From an uncultured Spirochaetia bacterium (GTDB lineage Bacteria > Spirochaetota > Spirochaetia > JABEVK01), in contig CALGPJ010000073.1 in the NCBI GenBank assembly GCA_937960645.1, positions 1-38,955 of the forward strand: 38,955 nucleotides of DNA, in the 5' to 3' direction. The notes under the pieces were generated by a model. The model was not told the DNA's origin. It worked only from the letters and a program-made list of their open reading frames with translations, and ran no database searches. A program made the translations under genes and the position numbers. Of this stretch, positions 1 to 34,845 are shown in pieces; the first letter of the stretch is position 1, and each line of letters opens with the position of its first letter.

Positions 1-290
1 ATCGGATGATGGAAAGGGTGGCGGTGTACGTGGCGTGGCACAACCTGAACAAGCCCGTTCGGGTGCGGGACAAGAAGTTGAAGCGGGTCACGCACGCCCA
101 GCTGGCGGGGCTGAGTAAGAGCTGGGTAGAACAGGAGTGGCAGCGGCTGGGCAAGGAGCGGGTGTTCCCGAAGCGGGAGCCCTTGAGGGAGTTTCACCGG
201 CGGGTGTGGAACCGCGAGGATGTGCTGTTGCGCCGGGATGGCAGTGATGTGTATGGCCCCGCCGAGCCGCTGTGGCGGATGCGGGCGTAA
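1..290 (+). CDS. Transposase-like protein, C-terminal part (5' end outside the window)
   Basis: The frame is open to the left edge (a codon precedes the first Met at 6), so this is probably the end of a longer gene. The visible part is basic. It contains an aromatic 'YVAWHNLNKPVRV' stretch followed by 'THAQLAGL', which resembles the C-terminal end of several DDE-type transposases, where a '(Y/F)xxxN..RPH..L..TPA..AGL' pattern follows the catalytic core. No catalytic triad is visible in this piece. A transposase-like N-terminus in the same orientation begins at 38866 at the other edge, so both may belong to one repeated IS family. The family is inferred from pattern memory only; it could also be an unrelated small basic protein. 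Confidence 0.45.
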   Translation, partial: RMMERVAVYVAWHNLNKPVRVRDKKLKRVTHAQLAGLSKSWVEQEWQRLGKERVFPKREPLREFHRRVWNREDVLLRRDGSDVYGPAEPLWRMRA

Positions 291-28405: not shown

Positions 28406-29421
28406 GAAACCTTCTCCCCAGTTTGCTCATTTTGGCGGTGCTCACCATCCTGCACGGGTGCTACTATCTACGACAAGGAAGCGCTCTTTGGGACATTTAT
28501 GGCAAAGCAAAAGACATTCGCCTGCTGTTGAGCTCACAGAATTTGGACCCTGAAACCCGGAATTTTTTGGAGCGGACCCTGCGAATTCGGGAATTCGGCA
28601 TCTCCCTGGGACTCAAGGACAACGACAATTACACGACCTACGCCGAAATCGATCGTGACTACCTTGCGGCGGTCGTCAGCGCTTGCCGACCTCTGGAATT
28701 CCAGCCACACCTCTGGTGGCACCCGGTGGTGGGATCGGTTCCCTACCAGGGCTACTTCGACATCGAGGAAGCCAGGGCCGAGGCAAAAAGGCTGGAATCC
28801 CAGGGTTGGGATGTCTGGATCCGCGGGGTCAACGCATTCAGCACCTTGGGGTGGTTCCGTGACCCATTGTTTCATTTCATGAAAGGCTACAACGCCGGGC
28901 AATTGGCCGACCTTCTCCTGCACGAGCAAACTCATGCCACCCTCTGGGTTCCGGGCCACCCGGATTTCAACGAATCTTTGGCCGTGGTTGTCGGACGACG
29001 CGGCGCCCTGGCCTATTTGAACGAAACCTACGGTGAAAACAGCCAGGAGCTGCGGGATTATCGAAGGCGCCTCGATACCAACAGAAAATTCCTGGATCTT
29101 TTTTTGGGGTTGAAAAAAGTCCTGGGTGAACTCTATGCATCGGATGTTTCGAGGGAACGGATGCTGACCGAAAAAGCCAGAACGATCAAAGAGTTTCAGG
29201 AAAACCTGCCCGAGGACCTGGCAGCGTGGAAGACACGGCCGATCAACAACGCCGTCCTGATGACCCTGTCCACTTATGAAGATGGCGTCGCAAAGATCGA
29301 ATCGTTTTTCGATCTCAACGGTGGTTTGAAACCCTCTCTGGAGATTCTGAAGCGGGCGGATTTTCGGGGGGATCCCTGGACCTGGTTGGATCGGGAATTG
29401 GCTCGAACGCGAAGTCCCTAA
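28402..29421 (+). CDS. Putative aminopeptidase lipoprotein (PF10023-type)
   Basis: 339 aa with lipobox 'ILHGC' (Cys 20) and a zinc-protease motif HEQTH at 174-178, in the context 'QLADLLLHEQTHATLWVPGHPDFNESLAVVVG', which is characteristic of the 'putative aminopeptidase' family. The Glu in 'NESLA' fits the third ligand. Anchored in the membrane. Two GTG codons are possible starts (28399 and 28402); the second gives the GTGA overlap with the M29 stop that recurs in this window. The last 107 bp overlap the convergent SGNH gene. Confidence 0.87.
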   Translation: MRNLLPSLLILAVLTILHGCYYLRQGSALWDIYGKAKDIRLLLSSQNLDPETRNFLERTLRIREFGISLGLKDNDNYTTYAEIDRDYLAAVVSACRPLEFQPHLWWHPVVGSVPYQGYFDIEEARAEAKRLESQGWDVWIRGVNAFSTLGWFRDPLFHFMKGYNAGQLADLLLHEQTHATLWVPGHPDFNESLAVVVGRRGALAYLNETYGENSQELRDYRRRLDTNRKFLDLFLGLKKVLGELYASDVSRERMLTEKARTIKEFQENLPEDLAAWKTRPINNAVLMTLSTYEDGVAKIESFFDLNGGLKPSLEILKRADFRGDPWTWLDRELARTRSP

Positions 29422-30304
29422 ACATCCGGTACCAAATATCCTGAGCCAGAATCCTGGCCCCGTGGGTGCTGAGGTGGATGCCGTCCCGTGCACGCAGGGG
29501 AACCTGAACACCGTCCACCACGCCGACGGGGGTGTATTCTCCCCGAAGACTCAGCAGGTGGCGCTGATCGAGGAATCGAACGTTGTGAAAGTTTGCCAGA
29601 ACCGGTTTGATCATCTGTTCGATCATGCGAATTTCCTGCTCCAGGCTGGCTTCCCGCATAGGAGGCAATTGTAGCCAGTACACCTGGTGACTTCGCGTGC
29701 TCACATAATCCAGCAAGGTCGATAGCCTGAGCAGATATTCCCTGCGCCAGGGTTCCGTATTGAACCTTAGCCAGCTCCCCTGGTGCCGGATTGCCTGACG
29801 ATCGTTGGCGCCCATCAGCACCACCACGATGTCGAAACCGCGTCCGGTCTGCCGTTGGCGCTGTTCCCAGAATCGCGGCACCTCGACGTTGAAATCCATG
29901 CGAGCCGGATTGGCGAGGCTGGCCGCCACCCGATAGAGACTCTCCACTTCCACCCTGCCGTCAAGTCGCGCCAGCTGCCCCAGGGCGTTGGGGAGGTAGA
30001 AGCCCGCGAGGCTGTCCCCCAGGACCAGGACCCTGAGAGGCCGCTGCACGGAAAAGACCGGGACCTCTGAGACCTTCGGGACAGGAGGGGGGATTTCTTC
30101 CTGGACTACCCAGGCCTCGTCGAGCCATTGCCAGAACCCCTGCCGAAGGCCGTTGCGCAGCTCCTCGTAGCCAACGGCCTTGACCGCCCCCTGCCAGGAT
30201 TCGATGGCAAATTTCAAAAAGGGCATCTCCATATCGGACATCTGGTCCGATTCAAAAATCAGTAGGGCACATCCTACTAGAACCAAATTTCCCAAAAGAC
30301 GCAT
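29315..30304 (-). CDS. SGNH/DUF459 hydrolase-fold acyltransferase partner
   Basis: 329 aa with one N-terminal hydrophobic segment ('LLGNLVLVGCALLIF'; the LVGC could also serve as a lipobox), then the SGNH domain: Ser 98 in 'VLGDSLAG', Asn 167 in 'MGANDRQ', and D274/H277 in 'RARDGIHLS'. It lies 6-9 nt after the MBOAT gene. Such pairs (for example AlgI with AlgJ/AlgX, PatA with PatB) move acetyl groups across the membrane onto a glycan, so this protein is probably the extracytoplasmic transferase. Start ATG 30304 is preceded by GGGAG; an adjacent ATG at 30307 is too close to it. The C-terminal Pro-rich tail overlaps the convergent aminopeptidase gene. Confidence 0.88.
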   Translation of the reverse strand: MRLLGNLVLVGCALLIFESDQMSDMEMPFLKFAIESWQGAVKAVGYEELRNGLRQGFWQWLDEAWVVQEEIPPPVPKVSEVPVFSVQRPLRVLVLGDSLAGFYLPNALGQLARLDGRVEVESLYRVAASLANPARMDFNVEVPRFWEQRQRQTGRGFDIVVVLMGANDRQAIRHQGSWLRFNTEPWRREYLLRLSTLLDYVSTRSHQVYWLQLPPMREASLEQEIRMIEQMIKPVLANFHNVRFLDQRHLLSLRGEYTPVGVVDGVQVPLRARDGIHLSTHGARILAQDIWYRMFRDFAFEPIPDPTRSRDPPENPPASESPERVSNHR

Positions 30305-30313
30305 CATTCTCCC

Positions 30314-31735
30314 TCAAAATTGATAATACACAAAGGGTGCCATCCCCGGGGGTCGTAAAATACTGATGCCCCAAAGGGACAAAATCAACACGAGCAGGGC
30401 CGAGTTTCGGGAGAGCTTGCGGCTCCAACAGCTCATGCGGCTCCACAGGCCCTCGGGGATCCACTGACCCAGGTAAACCACACCGACCAGAATCAGGGCC
30501 AGGGGATGCGCGGTGAATCCCCCCGGCGTTCCCAGCCTCTGAAACATGGCTCCCGCCGTTTCCACATCGGGGCTGCGAAACAAGAGCCACCCAAGGCTGA
30601 CCGCCAACGTGGTGAAGATCACGCGCGGGGGCCGCAACAAGGGCCCCCAAAACCCCGGAAAACAGAAAAGTTTGCCCAACCAGCGCTCCAATACCAAGAG
30701 AATACCCTGGTAGGCCCCCCAAATGACGAAGGTAATGCTGGCCCCATGCCAGAGTCCTCCCAGGAGCATGGTCAAAAACAGATTGCGCGAGGTTTTCCAT
30801 GTCCCGCCGCGTGAACCCCCAAGGGGGATGTAGAGGTAATCCCGCAACCAGCGCCCCAGGGTGATGTGCCATCGCCTCCAGAACTCGGTGAGACTGGCGG
30901 AATGGTAGGGGCGGTCGAAGTTTTTCGGCAGGTCGAAGCCCAGGAGCAAGGCCGTTCCCAGAGCCAGGTCGGTGTAGGCGCTGAAGTCGGTGAAGATCTG
31001 CGCTCCATAAGCGAGAAGGGCCCACCAAACTTCCGCACCGGAGAGAGCGGCTGGATTGTGGAAAACAGGATCGACAACGAGGCTTCCCAGGTAATGGGCC
31101 ACGATGACCTTTTTCCAAAGTCCCGAGGTGATGAGCAAATACGCTCTCGTGATTCTCTCCTCGGTGACAGGAGTCTTTTTGTCGAGCTGCGGAAAGAACT
31201 CGGCGGGTCTGAGGATGGGACCGGCGATGAGTTGGGGAAAGAAGGCAAGGTAGAGCAAGACATCGACGGGGTTCTGACGAGCCTGTTCTTTACCATGGTA
31301 AATATCCGAAAGATAACTCAGTATCTGAAAGGTATAAAAACTGATCCCCAGGGGGAGAATGCTGTCGTTGACCGGTAGGAGAAAGGGGAGGTTCCACCCC
31401 AGAAGCAGGGAATTGATTTGTGTCAACAAGAACAATTGGTACTTAAACCAGAACAGCAAAAAAGCGAAGAGGCTGCAGACAAAAACGAATAGCCTTCGAC
31501 GTGCCAGGGCCATATCGGTGCTCCCCACCTGCATACCCAAAAGCGCACCGAATCCCCAGGCGGTAAGACTGCTAACGAAAAACAAGGGCAAAAGCCGCCA
31601 ATCCCAGAAGCCGTAGAAAAAGTAGCTCGCTAGCAAAAGGAAAAACTTCCGGACCCCGGGGACGCGTTCGGTCATCCACGATACGACGAGGACAAAACAA
31701 AAAAAGACGAAAAACTCCCCGGTCGGAAAGAGCAT
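30314..31735 (-). CDS. MBOAT-family O-acyltransferase (AlgI-like)
   Basis: 473-aa multi-membrane protein (about 11 segments). AlgI-type signatures: 'LPLGISFYTFQILSYL', 'FFPQLIAGPILRPAEFFPQ', 'FWRRWHITLGRWLRDYLYIPLGGS', and the catalytic His at 330 in 'GGLWHGASITFVIWG'. It transfers an acyl group, usually acetyl, from the cytoplasm to the outer face. The substrate is not evident: no alginate or exopolysaccharide genes stand nearby, so peptidoglycan or a surface glycan are candidates. The start ATG lies 5 nt after a -10 box (promoter 31741-31769) and lacks a Shine-Dalgarno site. Confidence 0.93.
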   Translation of the reverse strand: MLFPTGEFFVFFCFVLVVSWMTERVPGVRKFFLLLASYFFYGFWDWRLLPLFFVSSLTAWGFGALLGMQVGSTDMALARRRLFVFVCSLFAFLLFWFKYQLFLLTQINSLLLGWNLPFLLPVNDSILPLGISFYTFQILSYLSDIYHGKEQARQNPVDVLLYLAFFPQLIAGPILRPAEFFPQLDKKTPVTEERITRAYLLITSGLWKKVIVAHYLGSLVVDPVFHNPAALSGAEVWWALLAYGAQIFTDFSAYTDLALGTALLLGFDLPKNFDRPYHSASLTEFWRRWHITLGRWLRDYLYIPLGGSRGGTWKTSRNLFLTMLLGGLWHGASITFVIWGAYQGILLVLERWLGKLFCFPGFWGPLLRPPRVIFTTLAVSLGWLLFRSPDVETAGAMFQRLGTPGGFTAHPLALILVGVVYLGQWIPEGLWSRMSCWSRKLSRNSALLVLILSLWGISILRPPGMAPFVYYQF

Positions 31736-31814: not shown

Positions 31815-33470
31815 CTATTGGTAAGCGCGATTGATGGCGCTGATCAAGGACTCGATACCGGCCTCGGTGATACTCTCGTGGATGCCGACACCCCAGACAT
31901 TACTCTTCCTGTTGGTGGAGATACAGATGAAAGCGGCAGCCTTGGCCTCGCTTCCGGTCGATACCGCGTTCTCATGAAAGTCTTTAATGGATAGCTGGTC
32001 GAACCCGGATGTTTTCAAACCGTTTACGAAGGCATCGATGGGACCGTGCCCTTCGCCCTCCAATTCCAACTCTTGCCCATTGATCTCCAGCAGTGCGTTG
32101 AACTTGGTGAGGTGCTGCCGGGACTCGATCCTTTCTCCTTCGAACTGCAGGAGCTTGATCGGTTTGTCTTTGCTCAAAAACTCCTGTTCGAACACCTGCC
32201 AGATTTCATCGGCAGACAGCTCCTTCCCTTTTTTGTCTGCCAGGTCGCCGACGAGTTTGCCAACCTCGGCGTACATCCCTTTGGGAATGTCCAGCCCAAA
32301 CTTTTCTCTGAGGATGTAGGCCACCCCGCCCTTACCGCTCTGCGCATTGATGCGAATGACCGCCTCGTAGGTACGGCCAAGATCGAGCGGATCCACGGGC
32401 AAATAGGGGATATCCCAGGCCGCTTCGGGATCGTTTTTCGATTTCCAGGCGTCGAGGGCTTTTTTGATGGCGTCCTGGTGACTACCGGAGAAGGCGGTGA
32501 ACACCATCTGGCCAGCATAGGGATGACGGGGATGGACGTACATCTCGGTGAATTCCTCGTATTTTCGGACAACCTCCGGCAAATTGGAGAAATCCAGTCC
32601 AGGATCGATTCCCTGGCTGAAAAAGTTCAAGGCCATGGTCACCAAATCCAGGTTCCCTGTTCTTTCCCCGTTACCGAAGAGGGTCCCTTCCACCCGCTCG
32701 GCACCGGCAAGAAGGCCCATCTCGGCGGCCGCGATACCGGTGCCACGGTCGTTGTGGGTGTGCAGGCTGATGGTAACCTGATTCCGGTGACTTTTGTGTC
32801 GACTGAACCACTCGATCTGATCGGCGTGAATGTTGGGCGGACAAACTTCGACCGTGGCCGGGAGGTTCAAAATGAGGGGATGATCATAGCCCCACGCTTC
32901 GTGGACGGCCTCGCAAACCTCCAGGGCGTAGTCGAGCTCGGTCTGAGTGAAGCTCTCCGGGGAATACTCGAAGAGTACCTCGGTGTTTTTGAGGCTCGAG
33001 AGCCCCTGCTTGACCATGTGGACACCATCGATGGCCAGCCGCTTGGCTCCGGCCTTGTCAGTGTTGAACGTGTAGAGCCGATGGGCCGGAGAAGTCGAGC
33101 TGTAAAGATGAAAGATAACCTTTTTGGCACCCTGAAGAGCCTCGAAGGTTCGATCGACCAGGTGCTGCCGCGCCTGACAGAGAACCTGGATGTAGACGTC
33201 GTCGGGTATACGGTCTTCCTCGATCAGCTGGCGCGTGAAATCGTATTCGATCTGGGATGCGGAGGGAAAACCCACCTCGATTTCTTTAAAACCGATCTCG
33301 ACCAGCATTTCGAACATGTCGAGTTTTTGGCGGACGCTCATGGGATTGATGAGGGCCTGGTTACCATCCCGGAGATCGACCGATACCCAGCGCGGCGCTT
33401 TATCGAGTTGCCGGTCCGGCCAGGTTCTGTCTTTCAAACCCACGGGAGGGAATAAACGATATTTAGGCAT
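31815..33470 (-). CDS. leuA: 2-Isopropylmalate synthase, LeuA type 2
   Basis: First step of leucine biosynthesis: 2-ketoisovalerate plus acetyl-CoA. 551 aa, the long type-2 form. Catalytic barrel with 'SVDLRDGNQAL' (30-40) and metal ligands in 'HTHND' (237-241), then the C-terminal LeuA dimer/regulatory domain (about residues 430-545) that binds leucine. The ATG is preceded by AAGGAGG (33475-33481) at 4 nt, an ordinary strong ribosome site. The gene lies behind a leucine-rich leader peptide and a terminator, which supports LeuA over the related citramalate synthase. No other leucine genes are adjacent. Confidence 0.94.
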   Translation of the reverse strand: MPKYRLFPPVGLKDRTWPDRQLDKAPRWVSVDLRDGNQALINPMSVRQKLDMFEMLVEIGFKEIEVGFPSASQIEYDFTRQLIEEDRIPDDVYIQVLCQARQHLVDRTFEALQGAKKVIFHLYSSTSPAHRLYTFNTDKAGAKRLAIDGVHMVKQGLSSLKNTEVLFEYSPESFTQTELDYALEVCEAVHEAWGYDHPLILNLPATVEVCPPNIHADQIEWFSRHKSHRNQVTISLHTHNDRGTGIAAAEMGLLAGAERVEGTLFGNGERTGNLDLVTMALNFFSQGIDPGLDFSNLPEVVRKYEEFTEMYVHPRHPYAGQMVFTAFSGSHQDAIKKALDAWKSKNDPEAAWDIPYLPVDPLDLGRTYEAVIRINAQSGKGGVAYILREKFGLDIPKGMYAEVGKLVGDLADKKGKELSADEIWQVFEQEFLSKDKPIKLLQFEGERIESRQHLTKFNALLEINGQELELEGEGHGPIDAFVNGLKTSGFDQLSIKDFHENAVSTGSEAKAAAFICISTNRKSNVWGVGIHESITEAGIESLISAINRAYQ

Positions 33471-33483
33471 AAAGCCTCCTTGT

Positions 33484-33513
33484 AAAAAAAAGGCCGCTGC
33501 AGTGCAGCGGCCT
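33484..33513 (-). terminator. Attenuator terminator upstream of leuA
   Basis: Perfect inverted repeat: AGGCCGCTGC (33504-33513 read leftward), loop ACT, GCAGCGGCCT (33491-33500), followed by a run of T (33484-33491). It lies between the leader ORF and the leuA ribosome site. The 5' arm can instead pair with upstream RNA, so termination is conditional. Confidence 0.9.
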
Positions 33514-33601
33514 AAAACTTTATCGAACTTGGTTTCAAGCCGCTCGCAGTTTTTTTGGCAAGACGAGACCGAGAAGGCCCAAATGAAGCTGGCTTAGAAA
33601 C
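33484..33601 (-). promoter_or_regulatory. Leucine transcription attenuator (three exclusive pairings)
   Basis: Segment 1 (33587-33601, GUUUCUAAGCCAGCU, codons 3-8 of the leader ORF) pairs with segment 2 (33532-33544, AGCGGCUUGAAAC, codons 22 to the stop) in 13 bp with two single-base bulges. Segment 2 also pairs with segment 3 (33506-33518, GUUUUAGGCCGCU) in 13 uninterrupted pairs, two of them G-U: the antiterminator, with a 13-nt loop. Segment 3 contains the 5' arm of the terminator. A ribosome stalled on leucine codons would cover segment 1 and allow 2:3; a ribosome at the stop codon covers segment 2 and allows termination. Pairings were found by hand; no folding energies were computed. Confidence 0.85.
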
Positions 33602-33609
33602 TTCTTCAT
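33535..33609 (-). CDS. leuL: Leucine leader peptide, 24 aa
   Basis: ATG at 33609 to TGA at 33535. 8 of 24 residues are leucine (codons 5, 8, 10, 12, 13, 15, 17 and 21; CTA, CTT, TTG, CTC and CTG all occur). The peptide starts MKKFLSQ and ends PKKLRAA. The ATG stands 6 nt after the -10 box, with no ribosome site, so it should be translated from a leaderless message. Its reading couples leucyl-tRNA supply to the attenuator before leuA. It is too short for routine gene calling. Confidence 0.82.
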   Translation of the reverse strand: MKKFLSQLHLGLLGLVLPKKLRAA

Positions 33610-33615
33610 AGTTTC

Positions 33616-33644
33616 AGATTAAACCTAAAGCCCCAACTTGTCAA
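33616..33644 (-). promoter_or_regulatory. Promoter of leuL-leuA
   Basis: Consensus TTGACA (33639-33644), 17 bp, TAATCT (33616-33621). The best -35 match in the window. The -10 ends 6 nt before the leader-peptide ATG. Confidence 0.8.
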
Positions 33645-33657
33645 TTGCATGCGGAAG

Positions 33658-34845
33658 TCAGTCGGAACCGGGGTTTTTCTTGTGGGAGCCCTCCAGGAAC
33701 CTGGCCTTTTTGACCATCGCTACGCGATATTTGGTCTGAATCTTGAGCACGGCCAAATCCAGTCGGCGGCGTTTCGCTTGCTCATCGTCAAAGAGCTCGG
33801 CTTGCCCCTCCATCAGAGGGCTCAGGCCACTCAAGCCCACACCGAGAAGTCGTATCGGCTGACCATTCCACCCCTGCCGAAAAATATCCCAGGCAATTTC
33901 TGATAACTCACTGGAACTGGAGACATATCGGGACAGGGTTCGTTGATGCGTTGTCATACTGAAGTCTTGCAGCCGAATTTTGAGAACGACTGTCCTTGCC
34001 GCCATCCCCTCTTCGAGGGCTCGGAAAAACACCTCGTGTGCGAGAGCTGCTAGTGTCTGCTGGAGTGCCGCAGAATCCCGGTTGTCCTCCGGAAAAGTGG
34101 TCTCGGCACTGAGGCTGCGGCGTTCCTGAGGATGTTGTGCCCCCGGTGGCTCCTGACCTTGAACCAGATAGTACAAATTGAGTCCCATCGATTTCCCCAA
34201 AAGCTGCTGCAACCGATCGAGCCCCACCGATTGAATCTTCCCGACTCGATCGAGACCCAATTCTTCCAGCCTTTCCCGTGCCTTTTTTCCTACACCGGGA
34301 AGGCGAAGGGGATCCATGCCTGCGAGCCACTCCCGAACCCTCTCCGATTCGATTTGAAACAAACCGTCGGGTTTGTTTTCCTCGCTGGCCATTTTGGCAA
34401 GGTACGGCAAGGGGCCGATACCGATCGAGGCGGTGACACCGATGTTTTGTTTGATGTCGTGCTTTATCCGTAACGCGACCTCCAGGGGAGGACCGAAAAG
34501 CCCCTGAGTTCCCGTCATGTCAAGCCTGGCCTCGTCGATGGAAAGCCGCTCGACACTCGGTGAAAACCGTTGCAACATGTCCATGATCTGGTTTGAGATT
34601 TCCCGATACCGCTCGAGACGGGGCCTGACAAAAATGGCGTGCGGGCAGAGGCGATGGGCCTGTTGGATCGGCATAGCGCTCTTCACCCCAAATTTCCGGG
34701 CCGCATAATTACAGGTCGAGACCACCCCTCGTTCTTTCGGCATGGCCCCCACAACCAAGGGGTGATCGCGATACTCCGGATGGTCTAGCTCCTCCACAGA
34801 AGCGAAAAAAGCGTCCAAATCGAGGTGAAAAAAACATTTTTCCAT
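33658..34845 (-). CDS. dinB: Y-family DNA polymerase IV
   Basis: 395-aa translesion polymerase. 'HLDLDAFFASVE' gives the first metal Asp (D9) and the steric-gate Phe; 'SIDEARLD' at 102-109 gives D104/E105. The usual Tyr or Phe after SxDEA is Arg (R107) here, which is uncommon. A helix-hairpin-helix follows ('LRLPGVGKKARERLEELG'), then the little-finger domain. 'QAELF' near residue 346 fits the sliding-clamp motif QxxLF but is not at the extreme end. The gene begins 1 nt after the upstream membrane-protein gene, whose end carries GGAG. No SOS operator was recognised. Confidence 0.93.
   Translation of the reverse strand: MEKCFFHLDLDAFFASVEELDHPEYRDHPLVVGAMPKERGVVSTCNYAARKFGVKSAMPIQQAHRLCPHAIFVRPRLERYREISNQIMDMLQRFSPSVERLSIDEARLDMTGTQGLFGPPLEVALRIKHDIKQNIGVTASIGIGPLPYLAKMASEENKPDGLFQIESERVREWLAGMDPLRLPGVGKKARERLEELGLDRVGKIQSVGLDRLQQLLGKSMGLNLYYLVQGQEPPGAQHPQERRSLSAETTFPEDNRDSAALQQTLAALAHEVFFRALEEGMAARTVVLKIRLQDFSMTTHQRTLSRYVSSSSELSEIAWDIFRQGWNGQPIRLLGVGLSGLSPLMEGQAELFDDEQAKRRRLDLAVLKIQTKYRVAMVKKARFLEGSHKKNPGSD

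Follow-up and report, generated by a model that had tools for sequence, protein, structure and literature searches.

The leucine attenuator of enterobacteria (leuL; Rfam family Leu_leader) consists of a leucine-rich leader peptide with rare CUA control codons and of three alternative RNA helices, 1:2, 2:3 and 3:4, located before leuA. In the leu leader of Salmonella, the rare CUA codons are a classical feature, and swapping CUA for CUG reduced the sensitivity (PMC1183508). Leader peptides can also be leaderless. The trpL (rnTrpL) of Sinorhizobium meliloti is a complete attenuator whose transcript begins with the leader-peptide ATG (PMC7298713). Streptomyces lividans has two leaderless leader peptides, leuL1 and leuL2, the first of which is leucine-rich and precedes leuA (PMC8079986). 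Among spirochaetes, dRNA-seq of Leptospira interrogans revealed about 440 mRNAs with a 5' UTR shorter than 10 nt (PMC5243855); the main text of that paper contains neither words beginning with "attenuat" nor leuA. A survey of premature terminators listed leader-peptide systems as known in Proteobacteria and Actinobacteria, and added Firmicutes (PMC2965389). The initial annotation of the DNA studied here knew of no spirochaete attenuator of this kind, and we likewise found none published in the literature, with open-licence papers covered.

Locus and parts of the element

The window is a stretch of 38,955 nucleotides (contig CALGPJ010000073.1) from the genome of an uncultured Spirochaetia bacterium (GCA_937960645.1; 2.23 Mb, 75 contigs, 99% complete). 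On its minus strand, leuA is preceded by a promoter, a short leucine-rich ORF and an intrinsic terminator (Table 1). A re-check of the sequence agreed with the promoter, the 6-nt gap and the 24-codon ORF with eight leucine codons of the initial annotation, and its coordinates and pairings were all correct, including the position of the stop codon in segment 2. The bases between the TAATCT and the leader ATG (33609-33607) are GAAACT. Judging by the anatomy of the element, its conservation throughout the class, its co-changing pairings and its rare control codons, leuA is very probably under a ribosome-mediated (trp/leu-type) transcription attenuator, which would sense charged leucyl-tRNA.

The region 3' of leuA (29315-31735) encodes, on the strand of leuA, a DltB-like membrane O-acyltransferase (TIGR04091 below cut-off) and a GDSLAG-motif protein. 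The two resemble an O-acetylation pair.

Table 1 Features of the putative leucine attenuator and its neighbouring genes in the window.
Feature	Coordinates	Strand	Basis and remarks
dinB (DNA polymerase IV), upstream neighbour	33658..34845	-	NF002677 above cut-off; promoter 3' of dinB stop codon
-35 element TTGACA	33639..33644	-	Sequence; promoter layout matches strict hits of 13 families
-10 element TAATCT, spacer 17 nt, leader ATG 6 nt on	33616..33621	-	Sequence
Leader ORF MKKFLSQLHLGLLGLVLPKKLRAA followed by stop, 24 codons, 8 Leu	33535..33609	-	Start at transcript 5' end predicted
Segment 1 GUUUCUAAGCCAGCU	33587..33601	-	Pairs with segment 2
Segment 2 AGCGGCUUGAAAC, contains leader stop codon	33532..33544	-	Partner of segment 1 or 3
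Segment 3 GUUUUAGGCCGCU	33506..33518	-	Pairs with segment 2
3:4 intrinsic terminator hairpin GGCCGCUGC-ACU-GCAGCGGCC	33492..33512	-	Folding energy
U-tract, U8	33484..33491	-	Sequence; 13 nt upstream of leuA start
Shine-Dalgarno AAGGAGG of leuA	33475..33481	-	Sequence; outside all three helices
leuA, 2-isopropylmalate synthase, long PRK03739/leuA_yeast type, ATG at 33470	31815..33470	-	NF002991 791.7 bits, TIGR00970 above cut-off

RNA helices and ribosome positions

The 2:3 helix has 13 uninterrupted base pairs including G-U pairs (-19.0 kcal/mol). It was equalled in 3 of 5000 dinucleotide shuffles and is thus far above chance. The 1:2 helix also has 13 base pairs, with two single-base bulges (-13.9 kcal/mol), and was equalled in 105 of 5000 dinucleotide shuffles, only moderately above chance in the window. 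The 3:4 helix is a perfect hairpin of -18.0 kcal/mol, or -20.1 kcal/mol with a flanking A-U pair, and the U8 comes next. Two features of the attenuator class were found here: an intrinsic terminator between leader and leuA, and an antiterminator, 2:3, that uses the 5' arm of this terminator. The 126-nt leader folded better than its shuffles (z -2.24), with folds computed up to the U-tract and the Shine-Dalgarno (SD) sequence of leuA lying beyond.

The three helices had been annotated as mutually exclusive. This proved right for 2:3, which is incompatible with both others, but not for 1:2 and 3:4, which have no bases in common and can coexist.

Ribosome positions were explored with a simple footprint model. 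The ribosome was assumed to cover 17 nt on the 5' side and 13 nt on the 3' side, counted from the first base of the codon in the A site. With the A site at codons 4-9, segment 1 was fully covered and 2:3 was left complete. Segment 2 was fully covered by a ribosome that had reached codon 23 or 24, or the stop codon. A stall at codons 15 or 17 would expose segment 1, and therefore the early leucine codons should matter most.

Leader peptide and control codons

The leucine codons of the leader are, in order, CTA, CTT, TTG, CTT, CTC, CTC, TTG and CTG. At a leucine content of 10-12%, the probability of at least eight leucines in the 23 codons after the start is 0.001-0.004. A short leucine-rich leader ORF, as is characteristic of attenuators, is thus present in the window (8 of 23 codons) and conserved in the class. 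Its single CUA is codon 5, the first leucine codon encountered. The leucine codons had been described as following segment 1, which needs correcting for two of them: codon 5 is within segment 1, and codon 8 spans the end of this segment. In the footprint model, this placement of codons 5 and 8 would suit the mechanism.

The CUA codon was strongly enriched in the leaders of the class, about 14-fold. It made up 21.9% of the leucine codons in leaders vs 2.0% in leuA (Fisher p 1.7e-27) for up to 31 leader/leuA pairs, which were based on automated ORF picks and came from relatives that are not independent. In families f1 (G002-G005: L021, L019, L022, L018) and f24, the leucine codons, as runs of CUU/CUC or CUA, may pair with a purine-rich segment 2. 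The control codons of these leaders may thus serve also as segment 1.

Conservation across Spirochaetia

The long leuA was present in 125 of the 395 genomes of the class, and 103 leuA upstream regions from 18 families were sampled. In most families, a short leucine-rich ORF and then a U-tract terminator were found ahead of leuA. Automated picking of promoters went wrong for some leaders, and ORFs were sometimes picked from an internal TTG; the figure to rely on is therefore that of a strict composite scan. Its promoter part called for a TTGACA-like box differing from TTGACA at one base at most, a spacer of 16-18 nt and a -10 box that matches TAnnnT at the A in second position and at the last T. 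This had to be followed by a 5-9 nt gap, an ORF that starts with ATG/GTG and has 12-45 codons, four or more of them for leucine, and a terminator no weaker than -11 kcal/mol. The composite matched 50 of the 103 upstream regions, in 13 of the 18 families, and none of 1030 mononucleotide-shuffled upstream regions. Searching 671 kb of related loci, with both strands counted, gave 26 hits, every one a leuA leader.

Families f6, f10, f18 and f43 had no strict hit, and leucine leaders and terminators were seen there by looser inspection. In family f26, the element was absent from most members, as judged from the upstream regions examined. No comparable leader was found for ilvB, leuB and leuS of the source genome. 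Upstream regions of long-type leuA in other phyla were mixed, with some leucine ORFs, mostly without a terminator.

The 5' arm of the terminator differs by family, being GGCCGCUGC in the window and GCCCGCUGCACC, GCCCGCUACUGAG, GCCCAGGC, GCCAUGGG or UUCUUCC elsewhere. Its upstream complement changes along with it. In 31 of 78 genomes, the complement reached p<=0.05; the summed chi-square was 391 on 156 df, for relatives that are not independent. When native arms of 2:3 were exchanged for foreign ones, the window and several families kept the native pairing as best or near best. This cross-swap test is weak, with GC-rich CCCGCUGC arms that are alike between families and short arms in f24. In f24 and some other families, 2:3 was not distinguishable from chance by the complement and cross-swap tests. 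Class-wide, the 1:2 test gave p<=0.05 in 10 of 72 cases, a weak result in which the pairings were partly long loose duplexes.

The initial annotation would have counted its reading as refuted if relatives had conserved neither the leader ORF nor 2:3. Both proved to be conserved in relatives, and leucine attenuation of leuA gains support from this comparison across the class.

The only other genome of the genus searched, G001, lacks both leader and terminator before leuA. There, TTGACG-17-TAATCT is directly followed by an SD sequence and the leuA ATG; the TAATCT is identical to that in the window and the LeuA is 72% identical. The likeliest explanation, for this one fragmented assembly (530 contigs), is that the attenuator was deleted and the promoter retained.

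Three further observations were made on individual leuA loci. Two contigs of genome G292, C361 and C453 (L115, L131), carry two long leuA copies, with a leucine leader and a terminator before each. A record named Nitriliruptoraceae (L034) has a leuA preceded by a terminator of the Spirochaetia type (GCCCGCTGCCGAATCCTTCGGTGGCGGGC), and is possibly a mis-binned contig. A long leuA match with one in-frame TAG (G143:C13:92907-94568) may be a pseudogene or reflect a sequencing error.

Predicted leaderless start of the leader peptide

From the position of the promoter, the transcript is predicted to begin probably at the leader AUG or 1-2 bases from it. No SD sequence precedes the leader ATG in the window, which lies 6 nt from the -10 element. 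Across families, the gap between -10 element and start is 6-9 nt, with the start in frame. Of the 48 promoters that scored 9 bits or more, 41 had an in-frame ATG/GTG 5-9 nt past the -10 element, whereas 2 had nothing but an out-of-frame one there. Some relatives have ordinary leaders, for example G040 and G207, where the -10 element and the ATG are about 33 nt apart, and G330 and G318, with an SD-like sequence.

Leaderless starts in the source genome as a whole were gauged by pattern searches. The pattern TTGACA-16..18-TAnnnT-5..9-ATG occurred 41 times, vs 10 times with a gap of 12-16 nt and 10 times with GAT in place of ATG. For 25 of 30 examined matches (e.g. L192-L220), the ATG starts a reading frame of 100 codons or more. 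From the excess over both controls and the long frames, we infer that leaderless initiation is probably routine in the source organism and not peculiar to the leuA leader.

It could also be that leuA has an attenuator, but that a promoter farther upstream gives the transcript a normal 5' leader, from which the leader peptide is translated. The longer leaders or SD-like sequences of some relatives, such as the four named above, fit this arrangement, as does possible read-through from dinB. It is nevertheless very unlikely in view of the ATG without SD in the window, the consensus-like TTGACA-17-TAATCT only 6 nt away, the short gap at 41 of 48 strong promoters, the many leaderless-type starts of the source genome, and the TAATCT still found directly before leuA in G001. 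A leaderless leader is therefore preferred. Its description in the initial annotation is supported by the short in-frame gap across families, but the surprise expressed there was overstated, as precedents exist. RNA polymerase and ribosome may be unusually close together on such a transcript, as the initial annotation suggested.

It seems unlikely that leucine attenuation in Spirochaetia has direct loading of ribosomes at the 5' end as a design feature that was conserved. If it had, the absent 5' UTR would fix the interval from transcription start to leader translation. Loading at the 5' end would take the place of loading through an SD, perhaps also of some of the pausing role of 1:2, and leucine attenuation would rely on 70S-type leaderless initiation.

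Proposed mechanism and alternatives

In the proposed attenuator, ribosomes would load straight onto the 5' end of the RNA. With ample leucine, the ribosome would reach the stop codon in segment 2 and cover this segment, 3:4 would form and transcription would end at the U-tract. With scarce leucyl-tRNA, the ribosome would stall on the early leucine codons, first on the CUA at codon 5, and cover segment 1. Then 2:3 would form, 3:4 would be blocked and leuA would be transcribed. If the leader were untranslated, for example on dinB read-through transcripts, 1:2 and 3:4 would form and terminate transcription. The attenuator (33484-33658) lies in the path of such read-through, and would end these transcripts at any leucine level.

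The hairpin and U-tract might instead be just the terminator of dinB, with a leucine-rich ORF there by chance. The dinB gene is immediately upstream on the same strand, and a terminator at this place would be of use to it. However, a promoter sits between dinB and the hairpin, the combination of leucine leader and terminator occurs before leuA in 13 of 18 families and nowhere else in the 671 kb, and the upstream complement of the hairpin 5' arm varies together with the arm. We consider this explanation extremely improbable. For the actinobacterial LEU element, it has been proposed that the leucine codons act via translation or through a regulatory protein. Such action, in place of terminator switching, would agree with the leaderless, leucine-rich and terminator-free leuA leader of Streptomyces (PMC8079986) and with codon changes there that misfit classical attenuation (PMC1262725, PMC8079986), but its probability is close to negligible for a locus with a strong U-tract terminator, a matching antiterminator and a leuA SD outside the three helices.

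Comparison with known systems

Ribosome-mediated leucine attenuation would thereby be extended to Spirochaetia, where the strict test finds one architecture at about half of the leuA genes sampled. The loci offer a natural series for studying attenuators without an SD-led start, and the co-evolution of terminator and antiterminator. They also point to short coding genes and to an RNA element that Rfam does not model: no Rfam family, Leu_leader included, matched at gathering score in 18 loci, and the window gave sub-threshold sRNA matches only. Rfam is without a model for the Spirochaetia leu element.

The element has in common with enterobacterial leuL the leucine-rich leader and the 1:2, 2:3 and 3:4 alternatives before leuA. 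It differs in that no SD precedes the leader, which is predicted to be leaderless, in the long type-II leuA, and in having one CUA in eight leucine codons. The CUA enrichment in Spirochaetia leaders is like that of the Salmonella leu leader (PMC1183508). The trpL of S. meliloti has a leaderless attenuator leader, as predicted here, but for tryptophan and in Alphaproteobacteria (PMC7298713).

The actinobacterial leuA leader (LEU element) encodes a leucine-rich peptide before leuA, as here, and this peptide is leaderless, as is predicted here (PMC8079986, PMC1262725). The LEU element is without an intrinsic terminator and perhaps forms a pseudoknot, with its run of leucine codons pairing with the leuA SD, whereas the Spirochaetia element has a terminator and an antiterminator; the strong terminator in the window sets it apart from elements with no intrinsic terminator before leuA. 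Leptospira is another spirochaete, and has leaderless mRNAs, but these belong to ordinary genes and to a different lineage (PMC5243855). Both the proposed mechanism and the predicted leaderless leader have precedents, and the novelty lies in the occurrence across Spirochaetia, the counts and the codon bias.
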